From positions 1 to 36,361 of the forward strand of contig RZYF01000004.1 in the NCBI GenBank assembly GCA_010014665.1: a stretch of 36,361 bases of DNA. The letters are read 5' to 3'. The notes under the pieces are model-generated. The model was not told the DNA's origin, made no database searches, and was given only the letters and a program-made list of their open reading frames with translations. Both the position numbers and the translations under genes were made by a program. The DNA comes from Candidatus Saccharimonadota bacterium (GTDB taxonomy: Bacteria > Patescibacteriota > Saccharimonadia > Saccharimonadales > Saccharimonadaceae). Shown one piece after another: positions 9,261 through 30,181 of this stretch. Within the stretch, counting starts at the first letter, position 1; each line of letters starts with the position of its first letter.

Positions 9261-9302
9261 TTTTCTTGCGGAAATTTTTGTTTTCTTATATTTATCTGAC
9301 TA

Positions 9303-9464
9303 TTACTTTACTGATAGAACTAGCCAAGTAGTAAATGTAGCTAAGTTGATTAGGAAAGAAAGTATCACTGTCGAAATCAATATATCGCCTGTAATGTTTG
9401 ATTTTATGCGTACACATCCGATACAGGTGTGTTCATTTGTTGGGTTGTTTGTTTCTTTATCCAT
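9303..9464 (-). CDS. Small (53 aa) single-TM protein with a CxxC motif; not in the supplied ORF track
   Basis: Translation: MDKETNNPTNEHTCIGCVRIKSNITGDILISTVILSFLINLATFTTWLVLSVK*. Preceded by TTGACA-N17-TAATAT and followed by a strong terminator. Confidence 0.6.
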   Translation of the reverse strand: MDKETNNPTNEHTCIGCVRIKSNITGDILISTVILSFLINLATFTTWLVLSVK

Positions 9465-9470
9465 ATCTCC

Positions 9471-9499
9471 ATATTAGCATAAGCTTGTATATTTGTCAA
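9471..9499 (-). promoter_or_regulatory. Sigma-70-type promoter of the 53-aa ORF
   Basis: TTGACA (9499-9494), 17-nt spacer, TAATAT (9476-9471) with upstream TGC. Predicted +1 is the A of the ATG at 9464. Confidence 0.65.
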
Positions 9500-9627
9500 T
9501 ATATAGGCTTCCCTGTTATTGACAATTGATTATCAATGTTTTATCTGTATTGTTGCATTTTGATGTCGTTTAGTGTTATAAAATGATTAAATAGCCGTGG
9601 AAAAGTCTCAGTCAATTGCGGAAAACT

Positions 9628-9656
9628 AATACTGCAGAGATAAACCCTGCAGTATT
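9628..9656. terminator. Putative terminator hairpin 3' of the GalU-like gene
   Basis: AATACTGCAG (9628-9637) is a perfect inverted repeat of CTGCAGTATT (9647-9656); 9-nt loop. Confidence 0.5.
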
Positions 9657-9674
9657 ATTCATCTATTAATCGTG

Positions 9675-10520
9675 TTATTTGATTTGGGTTTGTTCGAACA
9701 GCCAGTTGTTGGATTTTACCCAATTACCTAACGAGCCACACTCGAGATATTCTCCTGTGGCCTCTCTTACACAAACCTTACCGCCTTGATTCACTAGATC
9801 GTTGACCGAATCGATTATTAGGTACTCACCTTGGCTAGTTCTCTTCTCGTCAACCTGCTTGTCTAAGAGATCGAAGAACGTACCTGGAAACAAATATATA
9901 CTAGAATTATTGAGATTAGTATTTACCTCCCCGTCTCTAGGATGTTCAACAATCCGCTTATAAAAACCTCGGTCGTCTTTTTCGACTATACCAAAGTTCC
10001 CAATCTGTTCCCACGGGATCGGGTTACCTACTAGACCAGCGTCGGAGTTAGTATCTTCGACAAGCTTAATCAAATCTGCCATCTCTGAACCGCCATCAAG
10101 TCGGTAAAGTGTTTGGTCACCCATAATCACTAGAATGTTTTCGTCAGGCTCTACATAGTCACGACACAGCCAAACCGGTATCGTCGTACCATATCGACCG
10201 TCAGAAAGATCCTGTGTAATGTAATGAAAAGTTACACCTGCTGGTGGAGTTATCTAAGACAACAGATCATTTTTGCCTTTGCGCTCAAGATATGCTTCGA
10301 GTTCCATGTCACGCTCATAATAATTTCTTAACTGCCTAGCGTCTCCGCTGACAACAAAATAAATATCTTTCACCCCAGCTTTAACGCAATCCTCGACTAC
10401 ATAATCAACTATCGGACGATTGAGTAACGGCACCATACACTTTTCGACTGCTTTAGAGATCGGCAAGCGTCTAGTTCCGTACCCAGCAACAGCGATAATA
10501 GCTTTAGTACAGGTTTTCAT
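9675..10520 (-). pseudogene. GalU/RfbA-like sugar-nucleotide (UTP--glucose-1-phosphate type) nucleotidyltransferase with one in-frame TAG stop
   Basis: The two ORFs (10254..10520 and 9675..10130) are in the same reading frame, split only by TAG at 10256-10254. Conceptual junction: ...KGKNDLLS*ITPPAGVTFHYITQDLSDGRYGTTIPVWLCRDYVEPDENILVIMGDQTLYR... N-terminal AVAGYGTRRLPISKAVEKCMVPLLNRP is the nucleotidyltransferase signature. Confidence 0.75.
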
Positions 10521-11100
10521 ACAAATACTCCTTTACTGCTTTCAAACTCGAATATATTGGCCATGGTTTATCCTGAACGACTATATCATCTGGCGATATA
10601 ACTTGCACGAAGTGTATGTTATCGGGTGGTTTTACGCCAAGATCTTTGTCGTCAATCAACCAACAATCACCAGATTCACGCAAAATCTCTAGTTTAGGCT
10701 GAAGTGTAGTAACAACAGGTATACCGACTAGCGACAGGCATAGCGCGGCCTTACAACGCTGATAATCATCAGGGCCATAAGTAAGCACAGCAACATCAGC
10801 TACACCCTTAAGCCACGTTACTAATTCAGAAGCATACGGCATTTCCAGGCGACCGTCACTCATCTCCGACTCTATAACCTGTCGATAGGCTTGATTAGAA
10901 TCAATACCGTATGAACGTAGTTGGTTGGACATGTCGTGCATATAGGTTTCATCTTTCCAGATATAAAATTGATCTCGTTCAGCTACGCACATCTCGGGTA
11001 CGATATCGTAATATTTTGCCCACACCTGCCAAAATTCAATAGCTCTATCAGTATCAAATATCGTCCTGTCGAGATCGAGGAATACTTTCGGTCGGTTCAT
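10504..11100 (-). CDS. HAD-superfamily hydrolase-like protein
   Basis: Motif I FLDLDRTIFDTD, motif II VLTYG, motif IV WLIDDKD. ATGA overlap with the yvcK stop. Confidence 0.75.
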   Translation of the reverse strand: MNRPKVFLDLDRTIFDTDRAIEFWQVWAKYYDIVPEMCVAERDQFYIWKDETYMHDMSNQLRSYGIDSNQAYRQVIESEMSDGRLEMPYASELVTWLKGVADVAVLTYGPDDYQRCKAALCLSLVGIPVVTTLQPKLEILRESGDCWLIDDKDLGVKPPDNIHFVQVISPDDIVVQDKPWPIYSSLKAVKEYLYENLY

Positions 11101-12098
11101 TCAAAATAAATCCTCATTAATTGGCGAGCTATAGCATCAGAGTCATGGCGGATAAAACTACGTACGCTAGCCAACGGATCACTACCCTGTGAACCAGTCC
11201 AAACTTTTTTAGCTAACAGATCAGCTCCTTTACTTCGATAATGACGCTTTTTCAAAGTTACTCTGTCTAGTTCTACCCCATATTCACCTTTGTGAGCATA
11301 TTTATTCATCAGTTCATCACTTGGCATTTCGGTATTATATAACATATAATCAAGGAATTTATCGCCAACTAGTCGCTCGATTTCGTCTGCAAAATCATGG
11401 ACCTTATAGGCTTCGGTTGGACCTGGTTTAGTAACGAGATTAGCAACGTAGACACGCTTAGCTGTCGTTTTAATTAACGCATCACTGATACCAGATACTA
11501 CTAGGGCTGGTGCTAAGCTACCATACAGATTACCGGGAGCTATCACGACTACATCGGCTTCAAGGATTGCTAGGACAGCATCAGGATTGGCTTCGGCTAC
11601 CGGCTCGAGCCAGATTTTAGGATTTTTAGCTAGCTCTTTATGAGCTGCCACAAACTGCCCGCGAATAGTTTTACCGTCTTTGCCTTCTGAACAAAGTACT
11701 GTATTGGTAAGCGTCACTGGCTCTACTCGGCCAGTTATACTCAGCACTTCACTAGCTAGTTCGACCGCATCAACGAAATTACCAGTCATATCTTCAAGCG
11801 CCGCAAGGAAAAGATTACCAAAAGCATGGCCCTTGAGCGATCCATCACTAAATCGATGGTTAAACAAATCTCGAGATTTAGGACTATTACTGAGCGCAAC
11901 CAGACACTGGCGCACGTCACCCGGAGGTAACACTCCTAATTCGTCGCGAAGTTGTCCTGTTGAGCCACCATCGTCAGCCATGTTCACTAAAGCCGTGATA
12001 TCACTGACGTATTTTTTCAGACACGTCAATAGTGCAAAACTACCAGTTCCACCGCCGATTACAACAAATTTTGCGCCTTCACTTAAATCGTCACTCAT
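11097..12098 (-). CDS. yvcK: YvcK/CofD-like (gluconeogenesis factor family) protein
   Basis: FVVIGGGTGSFALLTCLKKYVSDITALVNMADDGGSTGQLRDELGVLPPGDVRQCLVALS; GHAFGNLFLAAL; VVIAPGNLYGSLAPALVVSGI. Confidence 0.92.
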   Translation of the reverse strand: MSDDLSEGAKFVVIGGGTGSFALLTCLKKYVSDITALVNMADDGGSTGQLRDELGVLPPGDVRQCLVALSNSPKSRDLFNHRFSDGSLKGHAFGNLFLAALEDMTGNFVDAVELASEVLSITGRVEPVTLTNTVLCSEGKDGKTIRGQFVAAHKELAKNPKIWLEPVAEANPDAVLAILEADVVVIAPGNLYGSLAPALVVSGISDALIKTTAKRVYVANLVTKPGPTEAYKVHDFADEIERLVGDKFLDYMLYNTEMPSDELMNKYAHKGEYGVELDRVTLKKRHYRSKGADLLAKKVWTGSQGSDPLASVRSFIRHDSDAIARQLMRIYFE

Positions 12099-12105
12099 AT
12101 TACTT

Positions 12106-13362: not shown

Positions 13363-13431
13363 CTAGCTACACATTATACCCTATGGGCCTTAAGCAACAA
13401 CGCTATGACGGTCGAAAATATTTGACGAATA

Positions 13432-14961
13432 CTAAATTTGTACGATATCTTCACCGAAATGTTTTTGAAGACGCAGGATAATTGATCGCTCATGGCGACC
13501 AAGCAGTTCAGATAGCTTAGCTAAACTGGCACCTTGCTGAAATTCTTGCTTCAGCTGATCATCTTGTTCAGCCGTCCACGGTCTGTATGCATTAGGGTGT
13601 TTTTCACGCATCTTCTCTAGCCTTTCATTCCAGCTAGTAGTTTTTTTATCTTTGAGTTCAGTTTTTTTCTTCGCCTCTTTTTCCCTCTTGATGGCTTTTT
13701 TGCGCAGATGCTCAAATCGCACGTGGTCATCGCAGGCTTTTTTGCGCAAGTCTTCGTCAATCCGGAGAGCTTCTGGGCTGACTTTCAGCGCCATCTGATT
13801 AATACCCATTAAACTTATTCCTTCTAGACTACGTACTCGACTGAGTGCTACATAACCCATTCCTTCCACAAACGCTTTACGCAAGTCAATCCGCGCTGCA
13901 TCGAGCGTCATCCCCTGACTTTTGTGCACTGTTATTGCCCATGCTAATCTAAGCGGAATCTGGCTTAGGCTAGCTCGTTTTTTGTCGCCATCACGTAACT
14001 CCCAAGTATCAGGCTTCATCGTAACTAAGCGACCGTTTCGAAATTGTACAACCGGGTAATTAGTAACTGTTTCAAAATCTTTGACTATACCTACGCTGCC
14101 ATTAACGTATTTTCGTTCCAAGCTATTTTTTATCGCCATAACCAAGGCACCTTTTTTTAGCGATAACTGATTTTGCGCTATACAAGATCGCTTGAGCGAT
14201 TCGACATAGTTTTCTTTGCCAGTCGTGACAGCGTAAAAAACCATCTCATTACCATCAAGATTCTTTAGTTTTTGACTGTTTATGCGGTCCACGTCGACAT
14301 TTACTGTATGTAGTTCTGTGACTTCCCCGCCAACCAACTCAGCATCAATCCTGCCCAATAGCGCCTCAGCATGCCTTCTGCGTAAATCATCACGTCGCAT
14401 GGAACCCAGTACGTCTAGTAGCAATTTATCTTCTTGCCTGTGTTGTTCCGCTAAATAACAAATAACTAGACCTAACTCTTCCCAGACATTGGCGTTTACG
14501 ACAAAACCGCCTTCACGGCTATCGCTACGATTAACAGGAGGTAGTTGGAAAAAATCACCACACAGGACTATCTGCAAACCACCAAACGGTCTTTCGTCTT
14601 CGCGAACCTTGCGCGTTACGATATCGACCATGTCTAGACGATAATCATGCATCATCGATATTTCGTCTATTACTAACACATCGGCAGTCTCGATAATATC
14701 GCGACGACTTTTGAGTAAATAATCTTCAAAATCCGTTTCTAATTCATCTCGTATACCTATACCACTCCAGGCGTGTATGGTCGTTCCGCCCAGATGTGTG
14801 GCAGCAAGACCAGTGGTCGCTGTCACGCTAACATGTTTGCCTAACTTTTTGGCATGAGCAATAAATTGGTTCAAAAGAAAAGTTTTACCTGACCCAGCCG
14901 GCCCGGTTAGAAGTACGTTTTTTCCCGAAAGTAATATCTCGAGCGCGAGCTGTTGGTCCAT
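13432..14961 (-). CDS. PIF1/RecD2-like superfamily 1 helicase with C-terminal HTH-like extension
   Basis: Walker A GPAGSGKT, VLVIDEISMM, VLCGDFFQLPPV, AWAITVHKSQGMTLD, GYVALSRVRSLEGI. C-terminal basic linker then AYRPWTAEQDDQLKQEFQQGASLAKLSELLGRHERSI. Confidence 0.9.
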   Translation of the reverse strand: MDQQLALEILLSGKNVLLTGPAGSGKTFLLNQFIAHAKKLGKHVSVTATTGLAATHLGGTTIHAWSGIGIRDELETDFEDYLLKSRRDIIETADVLVIDEISMMHDYRLDMVDIVTRKVREDERPFGGLQIVLCGDFFQLPPVNRSDSREGGFVVNANVWEELGLVICYLAEQHRQEDKLLLDVLGSMRRDDLRRRHAEALLGRIDAELVGGEVTELHTVNVDVDRINSQKLKNLDGNEMVFYAVTTGKENYVESLKRSCIAQNQLSLKKGALVMAIKNSLERKYVNGSVGIVKDFETVTNYPVVQFRNGRLVTMKPDTWELRDGDKKRASLSQIPLRLAWAITVHKSQGMTLDAARIDLRKAFVEGMGYVALSRVRSLEGISLMGINQMALKVSPEALRIDEDLRKKACDDHVRFEHLRKKAIKREKEAKKKTELKDKKTTSWNERLEKMREKHPNAYRPWTAEQDDQLKQEFQQGASLAKLSELLGRHERSIILRLQKHFGEDIVQI

Positions 14962-15017
14962 ATATCTAGTATATAGGATAGAGGTTGTTACGTGGCGTTT
15001 GTTGTATACTTATCTCT

Positions 15018-15827
15018 ATGAAAATTGCTATCCAAGGAGAAGCTGGCTCATTTCATGACGAAGCCAGTCAAATCTTATTCGGGCCAGATATAACACTTGT
15101 TGCTTGCGAAAATTTTCGAGATGTTTTTGCAGCTGTTTCTGATAGCGTGGCTGATGCAGGCTTGGTTGCTGTAGAAAATTCGCTCTATGGTTCACTACAC
15201 GAAACCTACGATATGATTGCTCGCTATAAATTTCCAATAATCGGCGAGGTATCACTGGCGATCCGCCAACAATTAATCGGCTTTCCCGGCGCCACCAAAA
15301 CCGAAATTGATGAAATCTACTCTCATCCAGCCGCGCTAGACCAATGCCGCAACTATCTTGAGACAAATTTTCCAGATGCCGAACTAATCGAACATTACGA
15401 CACTGCAGCAGCCGTCGAGCATATCAAATCTGCCGGTCTACTCGGATCGGCGGCAATTGCTTCAAACAGAGCTGCTGAGCTACATAACATGCAGGTACTA
15501 GACAAAAACATCGAAGATGAAGCCGAAAATATAACTCGATTTGTAGCAATTTCACCCACTTCAAAGCCATCAGGTGACGCCAACAAAGCCGCACTAGTCG
15601 TTACTACTAAACATAACCCTGGAGCTCTCTATGAGGCTTTGGGCGTGTTTCAGAGGCTAGGAGCTAACCTGACCAAGCTCGAGTCACGCCCAATCCGCGG
15701 CGAAGCTTTCAAATATCAGTTCATTATCGATACACTAGCTGACAATTATCAGATTACGAAAATACAAAGCAATCTTGAATCACAAGGTTGCTCCGTGACA
15801 CTACTCGGCCACTATAAATCTAGTTAA
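15018..15827 (+). CDS. pheA: Prephenate dehydratase with C-terminal ACT domain
   Basis: KIAIQGEAGSFHDEA, VENSLYGSLHETYDMI, NITRFVAIS (TRF motif), GALYEALGVF...LTKLESRPI (ACT). Start at 15018; the track starts at 14985. Confidence 0.92.
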   Translation: MKIAIQGEAGSFHDEASQILFGPDITLVACENFRDVFAAVSDSVADAGLVAVENSLYGSLHETYDMIARYKFPIIGEVSLAIRQQLIGFPGATKTEIDEIYSHPAALDQCRNYLETNFPDAELIEHYDTAAAVEHIKSAGLLGSAAIASNRAAELHNMQVLDKNIEDEAENITRFVAISPTSKPSGDANKAALVVTTKHNPGALYEALGVFQRLGANLTKLESRPIRGEAFKYQFIIDTLADNYQITKIQSNLESQGCSVTLLGHYKSS

Positions 15828-16243
15828 AGACGTGCACCGTCGCGGGCTTTGTTAGCCCAAGTATCAGCCAGTTCGTTACCATCATGACCATTGTGCCCCC
15901 GCAACCAAACTAGCTTTGCATTTGAAGCCTGGTAAAGTACGTAGAGTTTTTTAACGATATCGAGGTTTTTAATCTCTCCGCCTTTTTTTGCCCAACCCTT
16001 AGCCTCCCATTTAGGTGCCCACTTAGTAACGACGTTAATCCAAAACTCACTATCGGTTTTAACTTCCGCCTTATCACCGTTTAAAAATTCTAAAGCATTT
16101 ATAAGAGCTAAACCTTCCATGCGAATATTGGTGGTTTCACCGTCTTCACTACCAATTCTTACAGGCCATCCTTTTTCTATTACAGCAAACCCTCCCGGAC
16201 CGGGATTCGGGCTTGCGCTGCCGTCCGTGTATAGAATTCTCAC
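15824..16243 (-). CDS. rnhA: Ribonuclease H (RNase HI family)
   Basis: YTDGSASPNPGPGGFAV, MEGLALINAL, TDSEFWIN, WLRGHNGHDGNELADTWA. Confidence 0.85.
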   Translation of the reverse strand: MRILYTDGSASPNPGPGGFAVIEKGWPVRIGSEDGETTNIRMEGLALINALEFLNGDKAEVKTDSEFWINVVTKWAPKWEAKGWAKKGGEIKNLDIVKKLYVLYQASNAKLVWLRGHNGHDGNELADTWANKARDGARL

Positions 16244-16788
16244 TAATAAAGCCCTTCGTTAACAGAAACCAGTGGCTTGTTTAAGCCTAGTTTTTCAATC
16301 ATTTTTTCAGAAACTGGTAGCAAAGATACCGTATCACCTTTTTTTGCATAAATAACTAAAGGAAAAGATTCATCGGTATATGCAGCTACGAAAGCCCATA
16401 TGCCTGCTTCGAAATTACCTAAGGCTTGTTGGATTTGAGAAAAATCACGGTTTGGCCCAACCCACTGCTCCATGTTACGGAACCATACCGCTTCGGCCTT
16501 AGCCATACCTGGCGGGACTTCGCTTGCCTTACTCTTTAGCAACTCCAGTTCGCTATCACTAAATGTAAATGGTTCAGTAGTACGAAAAACCATAATATTA
16601 TAGTGATCTTTGGCTAACTGTACAGTCCTGAGATTAAAATTTAAATATACTCCACGCTCATCGGAATCAGTGTAGATTTTATAAGCTTCTGTAGCTTGAG
16701 CCCTGTTAAAAAACTTACGAAAAAAAGGCTTAAAAGCAACTGAACTTGTCAGCATTCTTTCTAGCCGATCAGCCATATCTTGCTGCAT
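16243..16788 (-). CDS. Hypothetical protein (181 aa)
   Basis: Open frame abutting rnhA; strong SD (AAAGGAGG) before the ATG. No family recognised. Confidence 0.7.
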   Translation of the reverse strand: MQQDMADRLERMLTSSVAFKPFFRKFFNRAQATEAYKIYTDSDERGVYLNFNLRTVQLAKDHYNIMVFRTTEPFTFSDSELELLKSKASEVPPGMAKAEAVWFRNMEQWVGPNRDFSQIQQALGNFEAGIWAFVAAYTDESFPLVIYAKKGDTVSLLPVSEKMIEKLGLNKPLVSVNEGLY

Positions 16789-16830
16789 ATTCCTCCTTTG
16801 TTTTGTTTATATAATTGTAGCAAAATCTTG

Positions 16831-17502
16831 TTAAATTAGCGTGCCACGTTCTATCAACGTTTCTGTAAAATAGCTTTCTTTCACATCTACAATCTCGATT
16901 ATTTCGCTAGCAACCTTGCGCGGATCATTGAATGTACTGTATTCTTCGTCACCCGGCTGCCAACCAGTCCAAAAAGGAGTTTTCATACCACCCAGTATAA
17001 ACAAGTGTACATTAACCGGAACTTCCAGCCGAGCCGCCTCCGCACCTATCGCTCTTGCAAAACCGGTCTGAGCAAATTTAGTTGCTATATAAACAGCATT
17101 ATCTGATCGAATACGAACACCACTTACCGAACCCAGTACAACAAATTTTGATGGTTTAGCCTGTACTATCATCTGCCGCCATGCCCATTGGGCAATCGGT
17201 AGAGCACCAGCAAAGTTCACTTCCCCCATACTACGCACGTCTGCCTGATCGGCAAAATTACCTCTATATCCATATCCTGCCGCCCAAGAAAATGAATCTA
17301 TATGCTCATCACCACACATGTCCTGTAGCTGATTTGTAATTTGTTCAACCGAATTCGGATCATACAGGTCTACGCGCAGACCTTCTCCGTGATATTGTTC
17401 TTCGTGATTATGACCCATTACTAAAACGCGTTCGCCACGTCCACGAATTTGGCTCATCATCTCCCAGCCGAGTCCGCTCGTCCCACCTAAAATAATATGC
17501 AT
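16831..17502 (-). CDS. Short-chain dehydrogenase/reductase
   Basis: GGTSGLGWEM nucleotide-binding loop, SWAAGYGY (NAG-like), VLGSVSG, YIATKFA (YxxxK). Confidence 0.85.
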   Translation of the reverse strand: MHIILGGTSGLGWEMMSQIRGRGERVLVMGHNHEEQYHGEGLRVDLYDPNSVEQITNQLQDMCGDEHIDSFSWAAGYGYRGNFADQADVRSMGEVNFAGALPIAQWAWRQMIVQAKPSKFVVLGSVSGVRIRSDNAVYIATKFAQTGFARAIGAEAARLEVPVNVHLFILGGMKTPFWTGWQPGDEEYSTFNDPRKVASEIIEIVDVKESYFTETLIERGTLI

Positions 17503-17592
17503 AACCCTAGTATAACGCTTACGTTTTATTCACGCTATATACAATTACTGTTTGGTTTTTCACTCATCACAACCTTCTACTATTTTTCCGAC

Positions 17593-18165
17593 TTAATTAT
17601 CTATTTCTCTTCGAATATCATCAAGTGCTTCACAACGCCGAATCACACTAATCCGGGTCGTGTCGAAAGTACGCGATCGAAGATCGACATAGGGTACATG
17701 ATGTATTTCATGTATTATCTCGCCATCAATATCTGGTGTTGCTTTGTGTTTTGCGACAATATTGCTCGCAAGAAATACATGGAGAAACCATTCTATCTTT
17801 ATCTCTGGCTGAACCGTCTCGATATACTGCCACTGTGCGCATTCAATTCCGGTTTCTTCCACTAACTCATGTTGTGCGGCATCGAGTACCGACTTATACT
17901 GTGGATCAACGCGCCCACCGGGAAGTCTGTATTCACGCAGCGGCAGACCCGGCTGCTCTTCTGTTATTACGACAACTCTATCTTGATCATCAACAGCTAT
18001 TACTAGCACAGTATCGGCGCGTTTTAACATCTCGAATGTTTTATACGAATCATCAAACATTTTTTGTTGCCACTGATATACATCGAATAAAACACCTTCG
18101 AATACTTTTGTAGCTTCTTCAGGGATAAGTTTGTATTTTTTCTTTGGTAATGGTCGATCTATCAC
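17593..18165 (-). CDS. NUDIX hydrolase family protein
   Basis: YRLPGGRVDPQYKSVLDAAQHELVEETGIE, a Nudix box with non-consensus positions. Start overlaps the CYTH stop. Confidence 0.8.
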   Translation of the reverse strand: MIDRPLPKKKYKLIPEEATKVFEGVLFDVYQWQQKMFDDSYKTFEMLKRADTVLVIAVDDQDRVVVITEEQPGLPLREYRLPGGRVDPQYKSVLDAAQHELVEETGIECAQWQYIETVQPEIKIEWFLHVFLASNIVAKHKATPDIDGEIIHEIHHVPYVDLRSRTFDTTRISVIRRCEALDDIRREIDN

Positions 18166-18752
18166 ACCGGCTCCTTCAGCTGTTCAGGTATAGGGTCGTT
18201 AAAGCGCACAAACGGTAAATCCCCTGTACAAAAGCTATCGCCTAGGAACGGATACTGTATCTTATAAACTACTGTGATATCACCGTGCATGGCGCTATTC
18301 ATGTCAAAACCAAGTTGTTCTGCAACTTCAGCAACTCGCAATTCGCTTGGACCTTCAACCTCTATAAGTGGCTGTAGCCAGGGCCACTCGTCGAGTACAA
18401 TCTCAACATCGCCAAGTTTCCATGTCTCACGTTTTGATTCCTGATACGAACCACCTTCAAGCTCAAGTGCTCTGTAGATGTCAACCATATTGTCGAAATC
18501 ACTCACCTCCAACTCGATCTCCTTCATACCATCGAGGCTTAATTTGTCGATCTGCTTGTATGCAGTCGTCACTTTATCGCCCTCGTCACGGACTCGTATC
18601 CAACCGCCCTTTGCTTTCATGGCAGGATTATCAAATGTGTAGCGTCGCATTGTCCGCATTGGTTTTTCGCATATCGCACCAAGACCAGTCAATATGGCTC
18701 GTATATCATCATGATTAACACCATAAAACTTCGCTTCAATTTCTGTATTCAT
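18162..18752 (-). CDS. CYTH-domain protein (class IV adenylate cyclase / triphosphatase family)
   Basis: N-terminal ExExK motif (MNTEIEAKF), RYTFDNPAMKAKGGWIRVRDEGDKVTTAYKQ. Start at 18752; the track extends to 18767. Confidence 0.8.
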   Translation of the reverse strand: MNTEIEAKFYGVNHDDIRAILTGLGAICEKPMRTMRRYTFDNPAMKAKGGWIRVRDEGDKVTTAYKQIDKLSLDGMKEIELEVSDFDNMVDIYRALELEGGSYQESKRETWKLGDVEIVLDEWPWLQPLIEVEGPSELRVAEVAEQLGFDMNSAMHGDITVVYKIQYPFLGDSFCTGDLPFVRFNDPIPEQLKEPV

Positions 18753-18779
18753 AGCTCTATTATACAATTATAGCTTTTC

Positions 18780-20138
18780 TTATAGATCATCGGCAGGCAC
18801 ACGCTTTTGTTCTGTTGTATCGCGATCACGCACCGTCACAGTGTCATCTTCAAGCGACTGAAAATCGATAACTATACAAGCTGGCGTACCAATTTCGTCT
18901 TGACGACGATAGCGCTTACCAATATTTCCGTTGTCGTCCCATTCGCAAATATACTTTTTCGACAAGGCATCATAAACTTCACGTGCTTTAGAAACTAACT
19001 CCGGCTTGTTTTTTAACAACGGAAAGACAGCGTATTGTACCGGCGCAAGTTCAGGTTTAAGTTTTAGAACAGTTCGAATTTGGCCCTCACCTATACTTTC
19101 AACCGTGTAAGCATCACTTATGACAGCCATAAACATGCGCCCCATACCGGCAGAGGTTTCTAATACCCATGGAATGTATTTTTCACCAGACACTGGCTCA
19201 GTATAGTTGAGATCCGTACCACTAAACTTCATATGCTGACTAAGGTCATAGTCAGTTCGGTCATGTATCCCCTCCATTTCGTCAAACCCAAGACTAGGAA
19301 AGTTATATTCGATATCCCATGCATCACTAGCATAGAACACAAGATTTTCGTGTTGATGCCAACGAAGGTTTTCAGGTTTTATTCCAAGCTCATTAACATA
19401 CCAGTCCCATCGCGTCTGCTTAATTTTCTCATACTGATCCTTGTTTTCATGTGGCCGCACGAAATACTGAGTGTCAGCTTGTTCCATTTCACGCGTCCGA
19501 AAAAGAAAATTTCGCGGCGAGATCTCGTTACGAAAAGCCTTTCCGATTTGTGCGATACCAAACGGAACTTTCATGCGCGTCGTATCAACAACGTTTTTGA
19601 AGTTAAGATAAATACCCTGGCACGCTTCACCCGGCAAATATACTGGGCGTTCGTCCTGTGCCGTAAAATCGCCAAGATTTGATTTGACGAGCAAGTTGAA
19701 TGCTCTTACTTCTGTAAAATCTTTCTCACCACAGTTCGGGCATTTGATCTTATTACGATTTTCATCAAATAGTTTGTTGAGCTCCTGTTCACTCATCTTT
19801 TCATCAGCAAACACACCGATACTACCTAACTCTTTGTCAGCGCGGATACGAGTATGACAGTTTTTACACTCCGCAAGTGGGTCGCTAAAACCGCTCGTAT
19901 GCCCTGAAGCATCCCATACCTTCGGATTTTTAAACATTGCGCTATCGATACCGACAAAGTCTTCTCGCTGATGTACGTTAGAGCGCCACCAAGCTCGTTT
20001 AATATTGTTAAGTAATTCAACGCCGTAGGGACCAAAATCATACAACCCAGCTTCGCCGCCGTAAATCTCGCTTCCCTGATATACAAAACCCCGTCTCTTA
20101 CATAGGCTTACGATGTCATCTAGCTTAGTTTCACTCAT
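18780..20138 (-). CDS. glyS: Glycyl-tRNA synthetase (single-chain, class II)
   Basis: LCKRRGFVYQGSEIYGGEAGLYDFGPYGVELLNNIK, FRNEISPRNFLFRTREMEQADTQYF, PWVLETSAGMGRMFMAV. Start taken at MSETK; the track extends to 20171. Confidence 0.93.
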   Translation of the reverse strand: MSETKLDDIVSLCKRRGFVYQGSEIYGGEAGLYDFGPYGVELLNNIKRAWWRSNVHQREDFVGIDSAMFKNPKVWDASGHTSGFSDPLAECKNCHTRIRADKELGSIGVFADEKMSEQELNKLFDENRNKIKCPNCGEKDFTEVRAFNLLVKSNLGDFTAQDERPVYLPGEACQGIYLNFKNVVDTTRMKVPFGIAQIGKAFRNEISPRNFLFRTREMEQADTQYFVRPHENKDQYEKIKQTRWDWYVNELGIKPENLRWHQHENLVFYASDAWDIEYNFPSLGFDEMEGIHDRTDYDLSQHMKFSGTDLNYTEPVSGEKYIPWVLETSAGMGRMFMAVISDAYTVESIGEGQIRTVLKLKPELAPVQYAVFPLLKNKPELVSKAREVYDALSKKYICEWDDNGNIGKRYRRQDEIGTPACIVIDFQSLEDDTVTVRDRDTTEQKRVPADDL

Positions 20139-20250
20139 ACAGATTCGCACCTTTCTCCATGTTGGCAACATGACGATAACTAATTAGTAATTAGTTTATC
20201 ATACCTCTGTTGCTACATTATAGTTTTGACAACCATCGACTGAGCCAAAA

Positions 20251-22000: not shown

Positions 22001-22092
22001 ACTTACCTCATTATATCATCTAGGACTCAGGTAAATGAAAGAGTAGGATTAATAAAAGATATCGATGATTTACTACTCAGTCGATTCTTTTA

Positions 22093-22749
22093 TTATGGAT
22101 TGAAATCGATAGACTTAGCTACTACTTCTTCAAAGTCTTTGGTAAATTCGGTCGAATCTGAAGCAACAACTACAGTTTTGTCTCTAACTTTGAGTACTAT
22201 CATTGTGCCAGAGCGATAATTGGAAAATTTGCCATCAAGCTTCACGCCCGTCAGATTATTTATTGTAATTGGGTTTGAGCGAAGATCTCCTTTTTTTACA
22301 AGTCCATCATATCGACGCAAGAATGACTCGTAAACATCACCCGATATTACGAGGCGTGTAGCAAACGGTGTTGAGGCACTAACTGCCGGCACCGAACCTG
22401 GATGCAAATACGCTTCGTAGTTCTCACCGCGTAGACCGTCTTCTGCTATATAGACACTCCAAGTTTTAGGATAACTAAACGAAACTGAGCCTAAATCTTC
22501 CGGACCAATTAATTTACTGTAAGGTTGCTTCTCTTTTTCCAAAAAATCTTTCTTGTCAGCTTCGATCTGGTCATTCACCGCTTTAGTAACCGCTGCTTCA
22601 ACCTTTTCTTGTACATTATCTCTATGATCGACGTAATTCGAATAAGCCCATATAAAAGCTCCACCTAGTACCAAACTTAGTATGCTCAGTAAAATACACA
22701 TCACCATCAATGGGTTCGCTATTCCCTGTTCTTGTTTTATTGAGTTCAT
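22093..22749 (-). CDS. Hypothetical membrane-anchored protein (218 aa)
   Basis: N-terminal TM (NPLMVMCILLSILSLVLGGAFIWAYSNYV), then charged linker and an extracellular domain. Promoter TATAGT 6 nt from the ATG. Confidence 0.75.
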   Translation of the reverse strand: MNSIKQEQGIANPLMVMCILLSILSLVLGGAFIWAYSNYVDHRDNVQEKVEAAVTKAVNDQIEADKKDFLEKEKQPYSKLIGPEDLGSVSFSYPKTWSVYIAEDGLRGENYEAYLHPGSVPAVSASTPFATRLVISGDVYESFLRRYDGLVKKGDLRSNPITINNLTGVKLDGKFSNYRSGTMIVLKVRDKTVVVASDSTEFTKDFEEVVAKSIDFNP

Positions 22750-22761
22750 GGTTATACTATA

Positions 22762-23262: not shown

Positions 23263-23268
23263 ATGTCG

Positions 23269-23478
23269 CTATACCTCGTCGAATCGTTTTTTTAGAATAG
23301 TTATGTCGTTTTGTAGAATCTCGAGTTCATTTGTGATCTCTTCAGCTAATTGTTCAGCTTTCTTATATTGCACAAGGGCTTCTTCTAATACAAAATCATC
23401 ACTCTCGAACCAACCAACCAGGTTTTCTAGATCAATAATCTTTTGACTGATAGTTTTCTCGCTATTTTTTTGTGACAC
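23269..23478 (-). CDS. xseB: Exodeoxyribonuclease VII small subunit
   Basis: 69 aa, LENLVGWFESDDFVLEEALVQYKKAEQLAEEITNELE; overlaps xseA by 17 nt. Confidence 0.85.
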   Translation of the reverse strand: MSQKNSEKTISQKIIDLENLVGWFESDDFVLEEALVQYKKAEQLAEEITNELEILQNDITILKKRFDEV

Positions 23479-24553
23479 GTTTAACCTCCGCTTTGATTAT
23501 ATCGCTTGCACGCTCAATTTCGATATTTTCTCCTACGACGACATTACCTCGAACTAGAGCATAGCCACGAGCCAAAACAAAAGACGGGTCATAGGCCCGC
23601 AAAGTTCTGAGTTGATTCTGAATTTTTTCATTTTGTAACTTGGCACTATCGCGCATCCGATCTATGGACATCATTAGATGTTGCCGAACTTCATCAACAG
23701 CGTCCTGACAACGTAGATCTGTCACATCTAGAGCATGTTTGATGGCGCGCTCACAGTTTCTGATAATCTCGTTACGATCCGGCGTAATTAACTGAGCCGC
23801 ATGACTAGGCGTAGCGGCACGTACATCCGCTACGTAGTCCGCCAAATACTCATCAGTTTCATGCCCTACTCCAACTATTGTTGGTATACGGCTAGAGGCA
23901 ATTTCACGCACCAGTGCTTCATCGTTAAAAATAGCCAAATCATCAGCACTACCGCCGCCTCTAACTATAGCTAGAACATCACATGGTTGCTCCTGCTGGT
24001 TAAAGTACCGTATAGCACGAATTATCTGATCCGAAGCACTAGCACCCTGGACTTGAACATGAGCAACTAATATATGCGCCCCACCCCACCTCTCGCCGAT
24101 TATACGTATAAAATCAGCGTAACCTGCTGCCTGAGTACTGCTAATAACAGCAATGTTTTCCGGCATTTCAGGTAAACTACGTTTTCGCTCAACCGCAAAT
24201 AAACCTTCTCTATCAAGTTTGATCTTTAATAATTCTACCGTTCGCTTAATAGTTCCTTCGCCAATCGGCTTAATTTCTCTAACCGTTAGACTAAATTTAC
24301 CCCAGGCAGTCAGCCTAGGAGTCCCCACTACTTGTATTCGCATACCGTCTTCTAGAGGTACTCGTAGGCTAAAAATCATCATAAAACACCCGAGTGAACT
24401 ATCAGTGTCTTTCAGGTCAAAAAAAACAAACTTTCCCTGGTTTACCTTGAAGCTAGCGACTTCGCCCTCGACTACGATAGTCGGAAAAGCATACTCAAGC
24501 GACTGATTAATCAGCGCTACAGCATCGCTAACCGATAACGGGAGGTTTTTCAT
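23462..24553 (-). CDS. xseA: Exodeoxyribonuclease VII large subunit
   Basis: LSVSDAVALINQSLEYAFPTIVVEGEVASFK, AVISSTQAAGYADFIRII, VRGGGSADDLAIFNDEALVREIASSRIPTIVGVGHETDEYLADYVADVRAATPSHAAQLI. Start at 24553; the track extends to 24604. Confidence 0.93.
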   Translation of the reverse strand: MKNLPLSVSDAVALINQSLEYAFPTIVVEGEVASFKVNQGKFVFFDLKDTDSSLGCFMMIFSLRVPLEDGMRIQVVGTPRLTAWGKFSLTVREIKPIGEGTIKRTVELLKIKLDREGLFAVERKRSLPEMPENIAVISSTQAAGYADFIRIIGERWGGAHILVAHVQVQGASASDQIIRAIRYFNQQEQPCDVLAIVRGGGSADDLAIFNDEALVREIASSRIPTIVGVGHETDEYLADYVADVRAATPSHAAQLITPDRNEIIRNCERAIKHALDVTDLRCQDAVDEVRQHLMMSIDRMRDSAKLQNEKIQNQLRTLRAYDPSFVLARGYALVRGNVVVGENIEIERASDIIKAEVKRVTKK

Positions 24554-25571
24554 GCTTACCATACTTTTTAAGAGCCGAGTTGTAACAAACATATCCACTA
24601 GCAATAGTTAAAAGAATCATTGAGGTTCGAGCCAATAGCACACCAGCTAGCGCTGTACTGGAAGCCATAGACGAAGCTGCCAAAAACAGCACCAGTATGG
24701 CTTCGTACCCACCAGCACCGCCAGGTGTTGCAAAAAAAATCGCTACCATACCAGCTAAACCCTGTCCAATTAATATCGGAGCTGGATTTACGATATATCC
24801 AAGTGACCAAAAAGCTATAAAAAACATCAGCGTCTCTGCGAAATTAAAAATCACACCCCAGCCCAAAGGCCTCAACAAATATTTAGGATGCCCTCGAAGT
24901 TCCATGTAATCACTGTGTAAGTCATCGAAAAACTCTGTAATCGTATTTGTTTTAACTATGTCTTTCTTGAGTCGAAACCAACGCTTGATTTTTATATTCA
25001 ACAAACTATCCATAACTAGTTCAAGTTTTTTTAATCTACTACGGTCACCTAGTAAACACATCGAGAGCAAAGTACCCAATACCACCGCCGTAACCATCCC
25101 CGAAGCTGCCAAAATAGTTGTCCGCTGTACTCCGACATCCACTGTCACTAATATCGTCGCGACCACCAATAAGCCTGCATATGCTATGAACATCGCGGCA
25201 AATTTCACAAACTGCGCCAATGTAGCGCGACCACTACTTACCCCAAGCTTATTGAGCCGCCAAGTCATAAATGATACTCCTGACACCCCTGCTGTTGGAA
25301 AAACGTGATTTACAAAATTCAATTCCAAAGCCATGCGCGGCATCTCTGACCAGCCAACATTTTTCAGATCACCACGCTGTTTTAAGTACGAAAAAATCAT
25401 AGCACCATGGGCATAATAGCTCAAAAACTGCGCGGGGACTATAAGCAAAAACACACCCAGGTCAACAGAACCCAATAGACGCCATGCATCTGCTATATCG
25501 TTACGAGCAACAAACAAAACCAGTCCGACTAAAACTAGTGTAATAATACTTAGCCAACTTTTAAATGACAT
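24528..25571 (-). CDS. Lysylphosphatidylglycerol synthase TM-region / UPF0104-like membrane protein
   Basis: Multi-TM; FLSYYAHGAMIFSYLKQRG, VNHVFPTAGVSGVSFMTWRL, ATPGGAGGYEAILVLFL. Confidence 0.8.
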   Translation of the reverse strand: MSFKSWLSIITLVLVGLVLFVARNDIADAWRLLGSVDLGVFLLIVPAQFLSYYAHGAMIFSYLKQRGDLKNVGWSEMPRMALELNFVNHVFPTAGVSGVSFMTWRLNKLGVSSGRATLAQFVKFAAMFIAYAGLLVVATILVTVDVGVQRTTILAASGMVTAVVLGTLLSMCLLGDRSRLKKLELVMDSLLNIKIKRWFRLKKDIVKTNTITEFFDDLHSDYMELRGHPKYLLRPLGWGVIFNFAETLMFFIAFWSLGYIVNPAPILIGQGLAGMVAIFFATPGGAGGYEAILVLFLAASSMASSTALAGVLLARTSMILLTIASGYVCYNSALKKYGKHEKPPVIG

Positions 25572-25601
25572 ACTATTTATTATACCTGTATAATTGACCG
25601 T

Positions 25602-26789
25602 ATGGATACACTTTTTATACTTGGTCGTCAGCCTGAAATTGGCTTAGCAGAGCTAGAAGCATTGTCAGATTCCAGCTCAGTGCACCAAATAAACGACACT
25701 TGCGCCACGGGCAAAGTCGACATAGCATTTTCGAGATTAGGTAGTAGCCAAAAAAGCGGTCCTATCCTAGCCGTGTACAATACTACCGACATTCATAAAG
25801 TCTTCGCTAGTCTAACAAACGAGATCCCAAGTCTTATTGCTAACATGCCAACCGAGGGTAAAGTCAAACTCGGTGCCAGTTTATATGGTTTCGACGCCAC
25901 AGCATATACACTCCAGGGTGAACTGCTTCGTCTCAAGAAATATCTTCGTAATCATGGACGATCTGCCCGTGTCATCCCGAACGAAACCGTCGCCTTATCC
26001 AGTGCTACAACTTACCATAACCACCTCACCCGAGAACTTGGACTAGAGTTCGCCCTGGTTCGTGATGGTAAACAAACTATTGTTGCACGCATGATAAACG
26101 TCCAAGATATTGACAACTACCGCATCCGTGACCGCGAACGACCGAAACGCGACGCTTTCGTCGGTATGTTACCCCCTAAGCTAGCGCAGACCATGATCAA
26201 CCTAGCTCAAGTCCAACACCAACAAGCGCTCTGGGATCCGTTTTGTGGCACCGGAGTAATCCTCATGGAAGCAATGTTACAAGGTATTAGTGTCTACGGC
26301 AGTGATGTAAGCGAAAAAATGGTCAAATACACCGACCTAAACATAGCTTGGTTGATTCAACACTACAATCAATATTTCAGTAGTAACCAAGACGTACGCT
26401 ATGAAACGTTTGTTGGTGACGCCACAAAATTTCAATTATTAGTAGAACAATCGAGCCGCCTTCAGTCTATCGTTACGGAGACTTACCTGGGTCAACCGCT
26501 TGGCGGACAACACCCTAGCGAAGATAAAATCCACGATATTATACGTGGGGTCAACAAGATTTCCCGTGATTTTCTAGAAAATGTCTCCAAACAAGTTGCT
26601 AGCGGCACCAGACATTGCATTGCTTTTCCGGCCTGGTACATAGATGACCACGAATATCATCTACCGGTCATAGACGAGCTAGCAGATCTTGGTTTTGAGC
26701 GAATCTCTTTTGCTTCTACGTCAAACATTATCTACCATCGCGAAGACCAGATAACTGCCCGCGAAATTTTGGTTTTAATAAAAAACTAA
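25602..26789 (+). CDS. Trm11/TrmG10-like SAM-dependent RNA/DNA methyltransferase
   Basis: RDRERPKRDAFVGMLPPKLAQTMINLA, DPFCGTGVILMEAMLQGISVYGSDVSEKMV (motif I). Motif IV region reads IVTETYLGQPLGG. Confidence 0.82.
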   Translation: MDTLFILGRQPEIGLAELEALSDSSSVHQINDTCATGKVDIAFSRLGSSQKSGPILAVYNTTDIHKVFASLTNEIPSLIANMPTEGKVKLGASLYGFDATAYTLQGELLRLKKYLRNHGRSARVIPNETVALSSATTYHNHLTRELGLEFALVRDGKQTIVARMINVQDIDNYRIRDRERPKRDAFVGMLPPKLAQTMINLAQVQHQQALWDPFCGTGVILMEAMLQGISVYGSDVSEKMVKYTDLNIAWLIQHYNQYFSSNQDVRYETFVGDATKFQLLVEQSSRLQSIVTETYLGQPLGGQHPSEDKIHDIIRGVNKISRDFLENVSKQVASGTRHCIAFPAWYIDDHEYHLPVIDELADLGFERISFASTSNIIYHREDQITAREILVLIKN

Positions 26790-26793
26790 AAAA

Positions 26794-26810
26794 TAGCCCC
26801 TAGTGGGCTA
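26794..26810 (-). terminator. Putative terminator of the 105-aa minus-strand gene
   Basis: Inverted repeat TAGCCC-N5-GGGCTA; on the minus strand it is followed by ATTTTTTAGTTTTTTATT. Confidence 0.55.
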
Positions 26811-26838
26811 AATGCGTTATAAAAATATTGTCCGATTA

Positions 26839-27156
26839 CTAGAGAGCCCTGGGACTATTCATCCCTCTTGGTCGAGTGACTACGCTCATACTGTTGCTAG
26901 AGTTATAAGCTTGACGACCCCGGACGGCCTTAGCGATCGGTGTATAGCGTGACCTAATACCTAGTGTCGCGTCGCCTTCCATAGCCATGCGCCTAATCTC
27001 ACCTGGTTTTAACCTGTTATGCATAGAAGGTGTTTGTTTTTTGAGTTCTGGCTCAGAAGAGAAATTAGATATAGATACTTTTCTACCTATACTGTTGGCT
27101 GGTGACGTTGGGCGTATCGATCTAAATTTTATTTTATTTGTATTTTTAGGAACCAT
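26839..27156 (-). CDS. Hypothetical basic, low-complexity protein (105 aa)
   Basis: Open frame with its own perfect-consensus promoter and a downstream terminator. No family recognised. Confidence 0.65.
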   Translation of the reverse strand: MVPKNTNKIKFRSIRPTSPANSIGRKVSISNFSSEPELKKQTPSMHNRLKPGEIRRMAMEGDATLGIRSRYTPIAKAVRGRQAYNSSNSMSVVTRPRGMNSPRAL

Positions 27157-27162
27157 ACTTTA

Positions 27163-27191
27163 ATTATATCAAAATAATTATGCTTTGTCAA
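27163..27191 (-). promoter_or_regulatory. Perfect consensus sigma-70 promoter TTGACA-N17-TATAAT
   Basis: TTGACA (27191-27186), 17-nt spacer, TATAAT (27168-27163). Predicted +1 is the A of the ATG at 27156. Confidence 0.85.
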
Positions 27192-27308
27192 GTTGCTTAT
27201 ACTATTTCTGTCCTTTAGACTCAGATACGCTAGACATGAGATTTATACGGTACATTAAATAGACTAATTACACCTATCGAACACCTTTATGCTATCATAT
27301 AAAATATC

Positions 27309-28496
27309 ATGCAAAAAACCGCTATCCTGCTTCTAGGAATTATACTGCTAGGATTCACCACTTCGACCGCTCACGCGGGAGTCGAGAGCGCTTACTTCGA
27401 AGCTCCAAAAAACATTGAAGCCGGGACTGAACTCAAGATACTAATACGAGCCAATCTGTCCCAGGACGAACACTCATCATGCTTTGCCAAAACTACACTA
27501 TCTTACTCAGGTAACCTCAAGCTAAAAACCGCAACTACTGGTAACTATCCCAGTCCTATAAATTTCCAGCAGAATTTGCAAAATATCAATATGACTACTG
27601 GTGAGTGTCGTTCAGCTGGATATACTGGATCATATATTCTAGCCTACCTTACCTTTCAAGTTCTTAGTGAAGGCAAAGCCACGATAACCTCGAAGGCTTG
27701 GAAAAACGACGATATAGAAGTAAATGGTAGCGTCGTGCGACTATCACCGATCGTTATAGACGTAGCACCATCTGCAAATACTATCGTCGGGCCACGTTTT
27801 CAGGGTATAACAATTAATCCCTATGTTGGTGCTATAGAACTAGCCTGGGGCTCAAATGTAACGGCAAAAGACATCAAACTATCTTATACACCAACCGATA
27901 GCAATTCAGTTATCGAGGCAAAAGTTACCACGTTACCTAACAACTCTTATAGTGGCATACTCGGACAACTTGAAGCATCTTCTTCTTATAATTTCACAAT
28001 AACAGGCATGGCCGAAGACGGTACGGCGCTTAGATACGACGGCTATGCGACTACAAAAGGTTATCCCATAAAAATATTTGTTCAAAAAAACAATTTACCA
28101 GTGGCTAACGCATCAATAATAATTGATGACTATACCTACAAAACTGACTCAGAGGGTATTTATCTAACCAACGTACCTCCTGGTAAAGCCGATATTCGTA
28201 TCGAAGTAGACGGCAAAACAACTCGCCAGACAATCAACGTCGATAAAAAACTGTTGCAAGACAACGGCAAAGTAGCAGACCGTCAAGATTTTACAATCAC
28301 ACTTGATTCAGATGTTACGGTCACTGAAAAATTAAACTGGATACCCTATGTAGTTACTGCAGTTTTCGTTTTGATTATAATAGCCGGAGCTGTGTTAGGA
28401 TTATGGTTCCGAAAGCGTATGAAATCGCCTGAATTGCCCACCCAACCAGAAAACACAGAGTCAACCCAACCGCCAAACCCAAATATCGAATCATAA
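27309..28496 (+). CDS. Secreted, C-terminally membrane-anchored multidomain surface protein (cohesin-like + FN3-like + carboxypeptidase-regulatory-like domain)
   Basis: Signal peptide (AILLLGIILLGFTTSTAHA), LAYLTFQVLSEGKATIT, FN3-like LEASSSYNFTITGMAEDG, GKADIRIEVDGKTTRQTINVDKKLL, C-terminal TM and Pro-rich tail. Confidence 0.7.
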   Translation: MQKTAILLLGIILLGFTTSTAHAGVESAYFEAPKNIEAGTELKILIRANLSQDEHSSCFAKTTLSYSGNLKLKTATTGNYPSPINFQQNLQNINMTTGECRSAGYTGSYILAYLTFQVLSEGKATITSKAWKNDDIEVNGSVVRLSPIVIDVAPSANTIVGPRFQGITINPYVGAIELAWGSNVTAKDIKLSYTPTDSNSVIEAKVTTLPNNSYSGILGQLEASSSYNFTITGMAEDGTALRYDGYATTKGYPIKIFVQKNNLPVANASIIIDDYTYKTDSEGIYLTNVPPGKADIRIEVDGKTTRQTINVDKKLLQDNGKVADRQDFTITLDSDVTVTEKLNWIPYVVTAVFVLIIIAGAVLGLWFRKRMKSPELPTQPENTESTQPPNPNIES

Positions 28497-28569
28497 CTAC
28501 AAAAAGTCTGCTCCATCTCTAGGAAACTCAACCTACATAGAGTAATTTGACCCATAAGCCTGAAGCCTC

Positions 28570-28598
28570 TTGACTGAAAGCAGTTTTTTAGGTAAAAT
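28570..28598 (+). promoter_or_regulatory. rpmA promoter
   Basis: TTGACT (28570-28575), 17-nt spacer, TAAAAT (28593-28598). SD TAGGAG lies upstream of the ATG at 28644. Confidence 0.65.
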
Positions 28599-28643
28599 GG
28601 TTTAGAATTTTTGATAAATAAATCTTAGGAGTTAGGTAATTAT

Positions 28644-28916
28644 ATGTCACATGTCAAAGCTGGTGGTACAGCCAAAAACGTTCACGATTCAGCTGGTCAG
28701 CGACTTGGCGTTAAGCTATTTGGTGGCCAAAAAGCTAAAGCTGGCAATGTAATAGTTCGTCAAGTTGGCGAGACCAAACAAGCTGGTCCCGGCACCTACA
28801 TGAGCAACAACTTTACTATCCACGCCGCAAAAGACGGTGTTGTTGGCTACAAACAAGTCAAAACCCGCAAATTCACCGGCAAAACCGCCCGCCGCACACA
28901 AGTAGTCGTCGAATAG
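28644..28916 (+). CDS. rpmA: 50S ribosomal protein L27
   Basis: SHVKAGGTAKNVHDSAGQRLGVKLFGGQKAKAGNVIVRQVGETKQAGPGTYMSNNFTIHAAKDGVVGYK; TAG stop. Confidence 0.95.
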   Translation: MSHVKAGGTAKNVHDSAGQRLGVKLFGGQKAKAGNVIVRQVGETKQAGPGTYMSNNFTIHAAKDGVVGYKQVKTRKFTGKTARRTQVVVE

Positions 28917-28936
28917 TTTTGTCGATAAAAACTATT

Positions 28937-28964
28937 AAAACTCCCATATCTCTATGGGAGTTTT
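28937..28964 (+). terminator. Intrinsic terminator of rpmA
   Basis: AAAACTCCCATA-TCTC-TATGGGAGTTTT, 12-bp perfect stem with an U-rich end. Confidence 0.8.
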
Positions 28965-28999
28965 ATATTGAGGTTTACTAACCGCTCCGTTCAGACTAT

Positions 29000-29638
29000 T
29001 TATTCACTGGGTTTTTCAAAACCTGTCATATCAGTGATAGCTGCCAATATTCTGAATACTCTTTCATTATTTTCAGTGTCACTTTTAGAAACATCTGAAT
29101 CTGGAGGTAATTCATAAGTTTTAGAAAATTGACTACCTGATTCATCACGTGGTCTACTGGTCGTAATTCTGGCACTATTATCATCTGGATAAACGCTAAG
29201 ATCAATTCGTGTAACAACACCCTGACCGTCTGGTAATTCAAGAGGTTTTGCATACAGCTCCGTGCGCTCGACACCAGGTTCAACACCACCAACAGTAGCT
29301 AACTGTGCTAAGATAAATCTTCGTGGTTTAGTTTTACCGTCAGGATCGATTTCCGTCCCAAACTTGACGCTACCTGGATGTTTTGTTGCAAGCTCAAATA
29401 GTGAAGTATAGGCAGCTCCTGCCACAGTCCCCTCGGTTTCAACGACATATCTTTGAAGTTCAGTTATCATTTCAATATTTGGATCTACTTCGTGTTCAAG
29501 ACTTCGTGGTCTACTGAATGGACCTCTACCCATAAGTAATCCTAGGCGACGTGCAATTGCTCCTACGCGGTTGGTTAATTTTTTAGTTTCTATTCCTGGT
29601 GTTTGTGGTTGTGTGTCTGGTTTTGGTTGTTCATTCAT
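29000..29638 (-). CDS. Hypothetical protein (212 aa)
   Basis: Open frame preceded by TTGACA-N17-TACTAT (29674-29646) one base short of leaderless. No family recognised. Confidence 0.65.
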   Translation of the reverse strand: MNEQPKPDTQPQTPGIETKKLTNRVGAIARRLGLLMGRGPFSRPRSLEHEVDPNIEMITELQRYVVETEGTVAGAAYTSLFELATKHPGSVKFGTEIDPDGKTKPRRFILAQLATVGGVEPGVERTELYAKPLELPDGQGVVTRIDLSVYPDDNSARITTSRPRDESGSQFSKTYELPPDSDVSKSDTENNERVFRILAAITDMTGFEKPSE

Positions 29639-29645
29639 GTCTCAT

Positions 29646-29674
29646 ATAGTAGCAAATAATTGCCTTTTTGTCAA
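29646..29674 (-). promoter_or_regulatory. Promoter of the 212-aa ORF
   Basis: TTGACA (29674-29669), 17-nt spacer, TACTAT (29651-29646); +1 predicted 1 nt before the ATG. Confidence 0.55.
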
Positions 29675-30125: not shown

Positions 30126-30181
30126 GTCATTATCTTACACTACACCGCTCACGGTTACAAGCATCGCACTATCAGATATAA

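Follow-up and report, generated by a model that had tools for sequence, protein, structure and literature searches.

The stretch of DNA analyzed in this study, referred to below as the window, is a 36,361-nt contig (RZYF01000004.1; contig C65) of a Candidatus Saccharimonadota bacterium draft genome (GCA_010014665.1; 928 kb in 157 contigs, approximately 90% complete, GC content 42%), in which a promoter-like -10 hexamer repeatedly lies only 6–7 nt upstream of the start codon. We consider it likely, with a probability of about 0.88, that these start-adjacent elements are sigma70-type -10 boxes driving leaderless or near-leaderless expression, and that this arrangement is general in the genome and in its family, beside a class of genes led by a Shine–Dalgarno (SD) motif. 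An initial inspection of the window (hereafter the original prediction) had listed eleven such hexamers and their distances to the start codon, all of which are present in the sequence.

Positional Enrichment of the Start-Adjacent -10

Genes were called with our own coding-only finder (a 3-periodic Markov model), so that start codons were chosen without upstream signals, and the genome-wide counts cover 609 kb (68 unmasked contigs, 66% of the genome) containing 382 transcription-unit-leading genes. A strict -10 was defined as TA...T with at least five of six matches to TATAAT, and the gap as the number of nucleotides between this hexamer and the start codon; dinucleotide shuffles (n = 300), gaps 12–53, and internal ATGs of the same genome served as controls. 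A strict -10 at gap 6–7 was identified in 54 of the 382 leading genes, compared with 8.34 ± 2.77 in the shuffles (maximum 18 in 300) and 8.7 predicted from gaps 12–53 (p = 5e-25), and it occurs at 1.0% of internal ATGs. The sharp peak at 6–7 nt that the original prediction had expected from such a scan was thus obtained. Gaps 5–11 hold 1, 25, 29, 16, 15, 16, and 7 leading genes, respectively, with a hard lower edge at gap 6 that would be expected if any shorter spacing moved the start site beyond the ATG. The window itself holds 25 leading genes, and in 6 of them a strict -10 is found at gap 6–7 (binomial p = 1.6e-7 against the internal-ATG rate). When exact patterns were counted independently of any annotation, TATAAT-N7-ATG was found 35 times against 10.7 ± 3.3 per gap, and gaps 6 and 7 together were enriched 2.5-fold (p = 6e-9); the same scan for GTG and TTG starts gave no gap peak.

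AT-rich upstream regions could yield TATA-like hexamers everywhere, from which those near an ATG were simply picked, and TANNNT alone is indeed common, being present in approximately 4% of leading genes at any given position. This explanation is already refuted by the positional test, in which 54 genes stand against about 8 from flanks, shuffles, and internal ATGs; the annotation-free peak and the recurrence of the pattern in 61 of 61 family genomes also speak against it, and chance can practically be dismissed. The fixed 6–7 nt spacing between a TANNNT-type -10 and the start codon exceeds what chance provides.

The enrichment concerns genes that lead transcription units, with strict -10s at gap 6–7 preceding 23% of divergent but 4% of operon-internal genes (36% and 6% at gap 6–10). 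Among all leading genes the shares are 14% at gap 6–7 and 26% at gap 6–10, while an SD motif precedes 31% of leading, 27% of divergent, and 53% of operon-internal genes. Leaderless expression, which had been put forward as a major mode for operon-leading genes, therefore survives as such in a moderate form.

Extended -10 Promoters and Exclusion of SD Motifs

For leading genes, motif discovery without a positional prior returned an upstream TGnTATAAT that clusters at gaps 6–11; for operon-internal genes it returned an upstream AAGGAG. TATAAT and TATACT are the dominant hexamers genome-wide, and TGn, the mark of an extended -10, precedes 30 of 62 (48%) start-adjacent -10s compared with 8.9% of the same hexamers across the genome. 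A TTGACA box 16–18 nt upstream is not clearly enriched, as a match of at least 5/6 was found at 2 of 61 sites and the mean best match is 2.84 versus 2.51 in the control. The promoters genome-wide are TG-extended -10s and not -35/-10 pairs. TTGACA does lie exactly 17 nt upstream of the hexamer at three window sites (9464-, 27156-, and 29638-), as had been reported, although these boxes are exceptional and the -35/-10 picture built on them does not carry over to the genome. Extended -10 promoters known elsewhere similarly have TG upstream of TATAAT and a weak or no -35 box; those described here differ in being fused to the start codon.

SD motifs and start-adjacent -10s are mutually exclusive. 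Of the 101 leading genes whose -10 lies at gap 6–10, only 2 also have an SD motif, compared with 115 of the other 281 (Fisher p = 2e-16), which bears out the expectation that both initiation modes coexist. In SD-bearing leading genes, the -10 lies mostly at gaps of about 25–30. The 16S gene of the draft genome stops at a contig edge immediately before the anti-SD, and the SD-type motif of the operon-internal genes argues that the anti-SD is intact.

The start-adjacent element might instead be an A/T-rich translation-initiation signal read in an ordinary leader, an idea put forward for Bacteroidetes-type starts. Such a reading gains from the unclear enrichment of a -35 box and from transcript ends that are predicted. 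The motif, however, is specifically TGnTATAAT(A), which corresponds to the sigma70 extended -10 (TGn in 48% versus 9%), and its enrichment at divergent and leading genes together with its depletion at operon-internal genes (23% versus 4%) is the distribution expected for promoters, whereas a ribosome signal would not be expected to show it. Moreover, SD genes carry the same element 25–30 nt upstream. A translation signal thus appears highly unlikely, and a promoter remains the preferred interpretation of the hexamer.

All 62 -10-adjacent genes start with ATG, and 49 of them are without an alternative upstream in-frame start. The base at -1 is a pyrimidine in 56 of the 62 compared with 129 of 204 SD genes (p = 3e-5), which agrees with a YR initiator located on the A of the ATG. 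It is conceivable that the -10s are real while the true start codons lie downstream, in which case genes would have been annotated too long and the mRNAs would have ordinary leaders. Start prediction from sequence is uncertain, and another in-frame ATG does follow within 15 codons in 20% of the -10-adjacent genes. Nevertheless, the starts were picked by coding score alone, the next in-frame ATG lies at a median distance of 58 codons, and the gap-6 edge coincides with these very ATGs. In addition, most relatives have an orthologue of the PIF1-like helicase encoded at 13432-14961 whose alignment begins at residue 1, and a stop lies no more than about 20 codons upstream. We therefore regard a general misplacement of start codons as very improbable.

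Distribution in Related Genomes

Relatives were compared by pattern counts only, using exact TATAAT-N6-7-ATG versus TATAAT-N16-17-ATG on both strands. The family of the window genome, represented by 61 genomes, gave 3936 versus 1295, with the shorter spacing higher in 61 of 61 genomes and a median ratio of 2.9. Other families of the same order (40 genomes) gave 1663 versus 762, and other Patescibacteria (137 genomes) gave 5647 versus 3401 with wide variation. Genomes G003 and G011, each of about 0.7 Mb, have 175 versus 30 and 158 versus 22, respectively. The balance tips slightly toward leaderless or near-leaderless expression from TG-extended -10s being a standing mode across Saccharibacteria, reaching an excess of approximately 145 exact TATAAT-N6-7-ATG sites in single genomes of this size. 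If this is true, some Saccharibacteria would stand near the leaderless-rich Deinococcus-Thermus and Actinobacteria.

Clostridia loci were rejected as a clean negative control because they show a gap-6 peak of their own, partly derived from repeated orthologous neighbourhoods; modest ratios in distant Patescibacteria are therefore not to be over-read. In gut Clostridia metagenome-assembled genome (MAG) loci (L030, L049, L050, L073, L081, L088, L091, L093, L094, L096, and L101), the pattern is repeatedly TGnTATAAT-N6-ATG with its peak at gap 6 and not at 7. It precedes the same few gene families there, e.g., open reading frames (ORFs) near proS with lengths of roughly 283 and 100 amino acids.

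Among orthologues of proS, 12 of 31 have a -10 at gap 5–11 before the ATG nearest the conserved core, in contrast to 0 of 14 members of the operon-internal recO family. The ProRS encoded by the window (proS, 18780-20171) is 74–79% identical to proteins from Candidatus Saccharibacteria MAGs, which places the organism in the Saccharibacteria (TM7, Patescibacteria). In one Saccharibacteria family, ProRS falls into two groups, 66–81% or about 45–57% identical to the window copy, and both groups occur even within one genus (G001, 52%; G002, 79%), which suggests gene replacement.

Loss of ribosomal protein bS21 was considered as a correlate of leaderless use. The protein is missing from the control genomes of Corynebacterium, Deinobacterium, and Thermus, which represent leaderless-rich groups; this candidate was rejected, as PF01165 matches were obtained in Saccharibacteria, G000 and G003 among them, some of these matches falling below the curated cut-off.

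Proposed Mode of Expression

We propose that a sigma70-type polymerase would bind the -10, in most cases TG-extended, and that transcription would start at the A of the ATG or 1–5 nt before it, as suggested by the geometry and by the pyrimidine at -1. Where the promoters lie relative to the genes is shown by the sequence statistics themselves. The resulting transcript, devoid of an SD, would be translated directly from its 5′-terminal or near-terminal AUG, as in other bacterial leaderless mRNAs, in parallel with a classical class defined by an SD motif and a more distant -10 (about 25–30 nt). Because such promoters would do without a -35, a spacer of approximately 30 bp can serve two divergent leaderless genes together.

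Transcription might usually begin a few nucleotides upstream of the ATG, leaving a 5′ untranslated region of 1–5 nt and few strictly leaderless mRNAs. The shoulder at gaps 8–11 (16, 15, 16, and 7 genes) and the spread of proS orthologues over gaps 6–11 are compatible with this view, against which the modal gaps 6 and 7 put +1 at the A of the ATG under the usual 6–7 nt spacing, and a pyrimidine is found at -1 in the gap 6–7 class. We consider a predominance of such short leaders possible but rather unlikely. A fair estimate is that the leaderless and near-leaderless classes together would make up between roughly one fifth and one third of leading genes.

Several points weigh against leaderless or near-leaderless expression as outlined here. 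The gene starts rest on a coding-only finder run over 66% of the genome, and some proS orthologues have ambiguous starts. Moreover, 166 of 382 leading genes show no SD motif and no -10 at gap 6–10, a large third class that the two modes leave unexplained. The shoulder at gaps 8–11 would give many transcripts leaders of 1–5 nt and not exactly 0, and both the transcription start and the mechanism of translation are inferred.

Comparison With Known Leaderless Systems

The genes described here resemble the TA-led leaderless genes of Zheng et al. (2011; PMC3160421), in which TANNNT lies approximately 12 bp upstream (counted from its first T), the SD is absent, and SD-led genes coexist. The defining features of that group, i.e., a fixed spacing beyond chance, enrichment at transcription-unit-leading genes, and absence of the SD at -10-adjacent genes, are all found in this genome. 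The same survey reported approximately 19% in Actinobacteria, 39% in Deinococcus-Thermus, and 4% in Firmicutes, in addition to other phyla; TM7/Saccharibacteria are not mentioned in its text, and a TG extension was noted chiefly for low-GC Firmicutes, with Lactococcus as an example (PMC3160421).

Similarly, the -10 motif of Deinococcus-Thermus lies 6–7 bp upstream of the ORF, where it precedes nearly a third of genes beside a GGAG ribosome-site class (Zhong et al., 2025; PMC12340547). The commonest hexamer in that group is TACACT, and promoter function was tested experimentally (PMC12340547), whereas in the present genome TATAAT and TATACT with a TG extension prevail and promoter function is deduced from sequence features. 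In Mycobacterium tuberculosis and other Actinobacteria, leaderless and SD-led transcripts also occur in one genome, and the leaderless transcripts there were mapped by RNA sequencing (Cortes et al., 2013; PMC3898074), whereas those considered here are predicted. The original prediction invoked Actinobacteria and Deinococcus; the lineage here is Saccharibacteria (Patescibacteria). GTG-started leaderless genes are also common in Actinobacteria. In the genome studied here, by contrast, only ATG shows the peak.

According to predictions made with GeneMarkS-2, 21.6% of bacterial species use leaderless transcripts (PMC9581028). Our literature search, for which most subscription journals were beyond reach, found no paper on leaderless mRNAs in Saccharibacteria or other Patescibacteria, nor one on transcription starts in Saccharibacteria. 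While this kind of gene is well established elsewhere, Saccharibacteria are apparently an unreported lineage for it. These tiny, parasitic-type bacteria have been cultured and are genetically tractable, with natural competence, transposon sequencing, and reporters available (PMC10633639). Should leaderless genes really account for a fifth to a third of the leading genes, start codons would have to be annotated differently, promoters for expression tools chosen differently, and models of translation by these reduced ribosomes revised. The finding also opens a comparison with the Actinobacterial hosts of Saccharibacteria, which use leaderless mRNAs as well.

Start-Adjacent -10s in the Window

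Apart from the two doubtful ORFs described last, the genes behind the window sites are ordinary and mutually unrelated. On the minus strand, TATACT at 14968..14973 lies at gap 6 of the PIF1-like helicase gene (13432-14961; Pfam PIF1), and a plus-strand TATACT at 15005..15010 lies at gap 7 of the divergent prephenate dehydratase gene (15018-15827; Pfam PDT). A short-chain dehydrogenase gene (16831-17502; Pfam adh_short) has TATACT at 17509..17514 on the minus strand (gap 6).

The designation operon-leading does not strictly apply at two minus-strand sites, as same-strand genes lie 28 and 12 nt upstream of 18752- and 22749-, respectively. At the former, TATAAT (18759..18764, gap 6) precedes a CYTH-domain gene (18162-18752; Pfam CYTH) and sits in the 28 nt between this gene and proS, which is encoded on the same strand; the orthologue in L245 has TATAAT at gap 17 and an SD motif instead. 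At the latter, TATAGT (22756..22761, gap 6) precedes gene 22093-22749 and occupies the 12-nt spacer behind a same-strand gene, and in L024 the aligned start of a candidate orthologue is preceded, about 34 codons further upstream, by an ATG with TATAAT at gap 6. Either promoter would thus fall inside a possible operon.

One divergent pair is separated by a spacer of only 30 bp (25572-25601) that contains both -10s, 4 bp apart. TATAAT at 25579..25584 on the minus strand (gap 7) belongs to a gene for a lysylphosphatidylglycerol synthase TM region (24528-25571; Pfam PF03706), and TATAAT at 25589..25594 on the plus strand (gap 7) to an RMKL-like methyltransferase gene (25602-26789). Orthologues of the methyltransferase were identified in 99 of 101 relatives, with TATAAT-N7-ATG in L022 (45% identity) and TATAAT-N6-GTG in L024 (40%), and the L024 orthologue of 24528-25571 (29% identity) has TATAAT at gap 8. 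L024 accordingly keeps the adjacent -10s of the pair (gaps 8 and 6) at a protein identity of 29–40%. A second back-to-back pair is present in L191, where a 32-bp spacer separates the divergent genes 3511- and 3594+. In both the 30- and 32-bp pairs, we infer that the footprint of a polymerase at one promoter would extend over the start at the other, and joint binding seems hardly possible.

As an SD-led contrast case, gene 16243-16788 on the minus strand indeed has an AGGAGG region (16788..16800) immediately before its ATG and its nearest strict -10 at gap 25; rpmA and ctpA, which had been named in the same context, were not located.

TAATAT, TACTAT, and TAAGAT fall below the strict -10 threshold. 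The weaker hexamer TACTAT (29646..29651, minus strand) lies at gap 7 of gene 29000-29638 and has TTGACA 17 nt upstream (29669..29674, minus strand), which is exceptional for this genome. TAAGAT (30132..30137, minus strand), a weak -10-like hexamer, lies at gap 6 of a response-regulator gene (29745-30125; Pfam Response_reg).

The other two TTGACA-bearing sites, 9464- and 27156-, are doubtful as starts of protein genes. TAATAT at 9471..9476 (minus strand; TTGACA at 9494-9499, N17) looks like a real promoter and opens only a 53-codon ORF, and TATAAT at 27163..27168 (minus strand; TTGACA at 27186-27191, N17) opens a 105-amino-acid ORF that has no Pfam match and was not called by the coding model. 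No Rfam family or tRNA was found at either site, and folding of the 27156- transcript gave no unusual degree of structure (z = -0.51). As promoters, the two sites nevertheless remain good candidates. The 53-codon ORF (9300-9464, minus strand) has a hydrophobic C-terminal half and may encode a small membrane protein; in the same part of the window, ORF 10254-10520 is a nucleotidyltransferase fragment (Pfam). Region 26790-27308, which lies between neighbouring genes and has a strong minus-strand TTGACA-N17-TATAAT and a poorly coding 105-amino-acid frame, possibly encodes a small RNA or a lineage-specific peptide.

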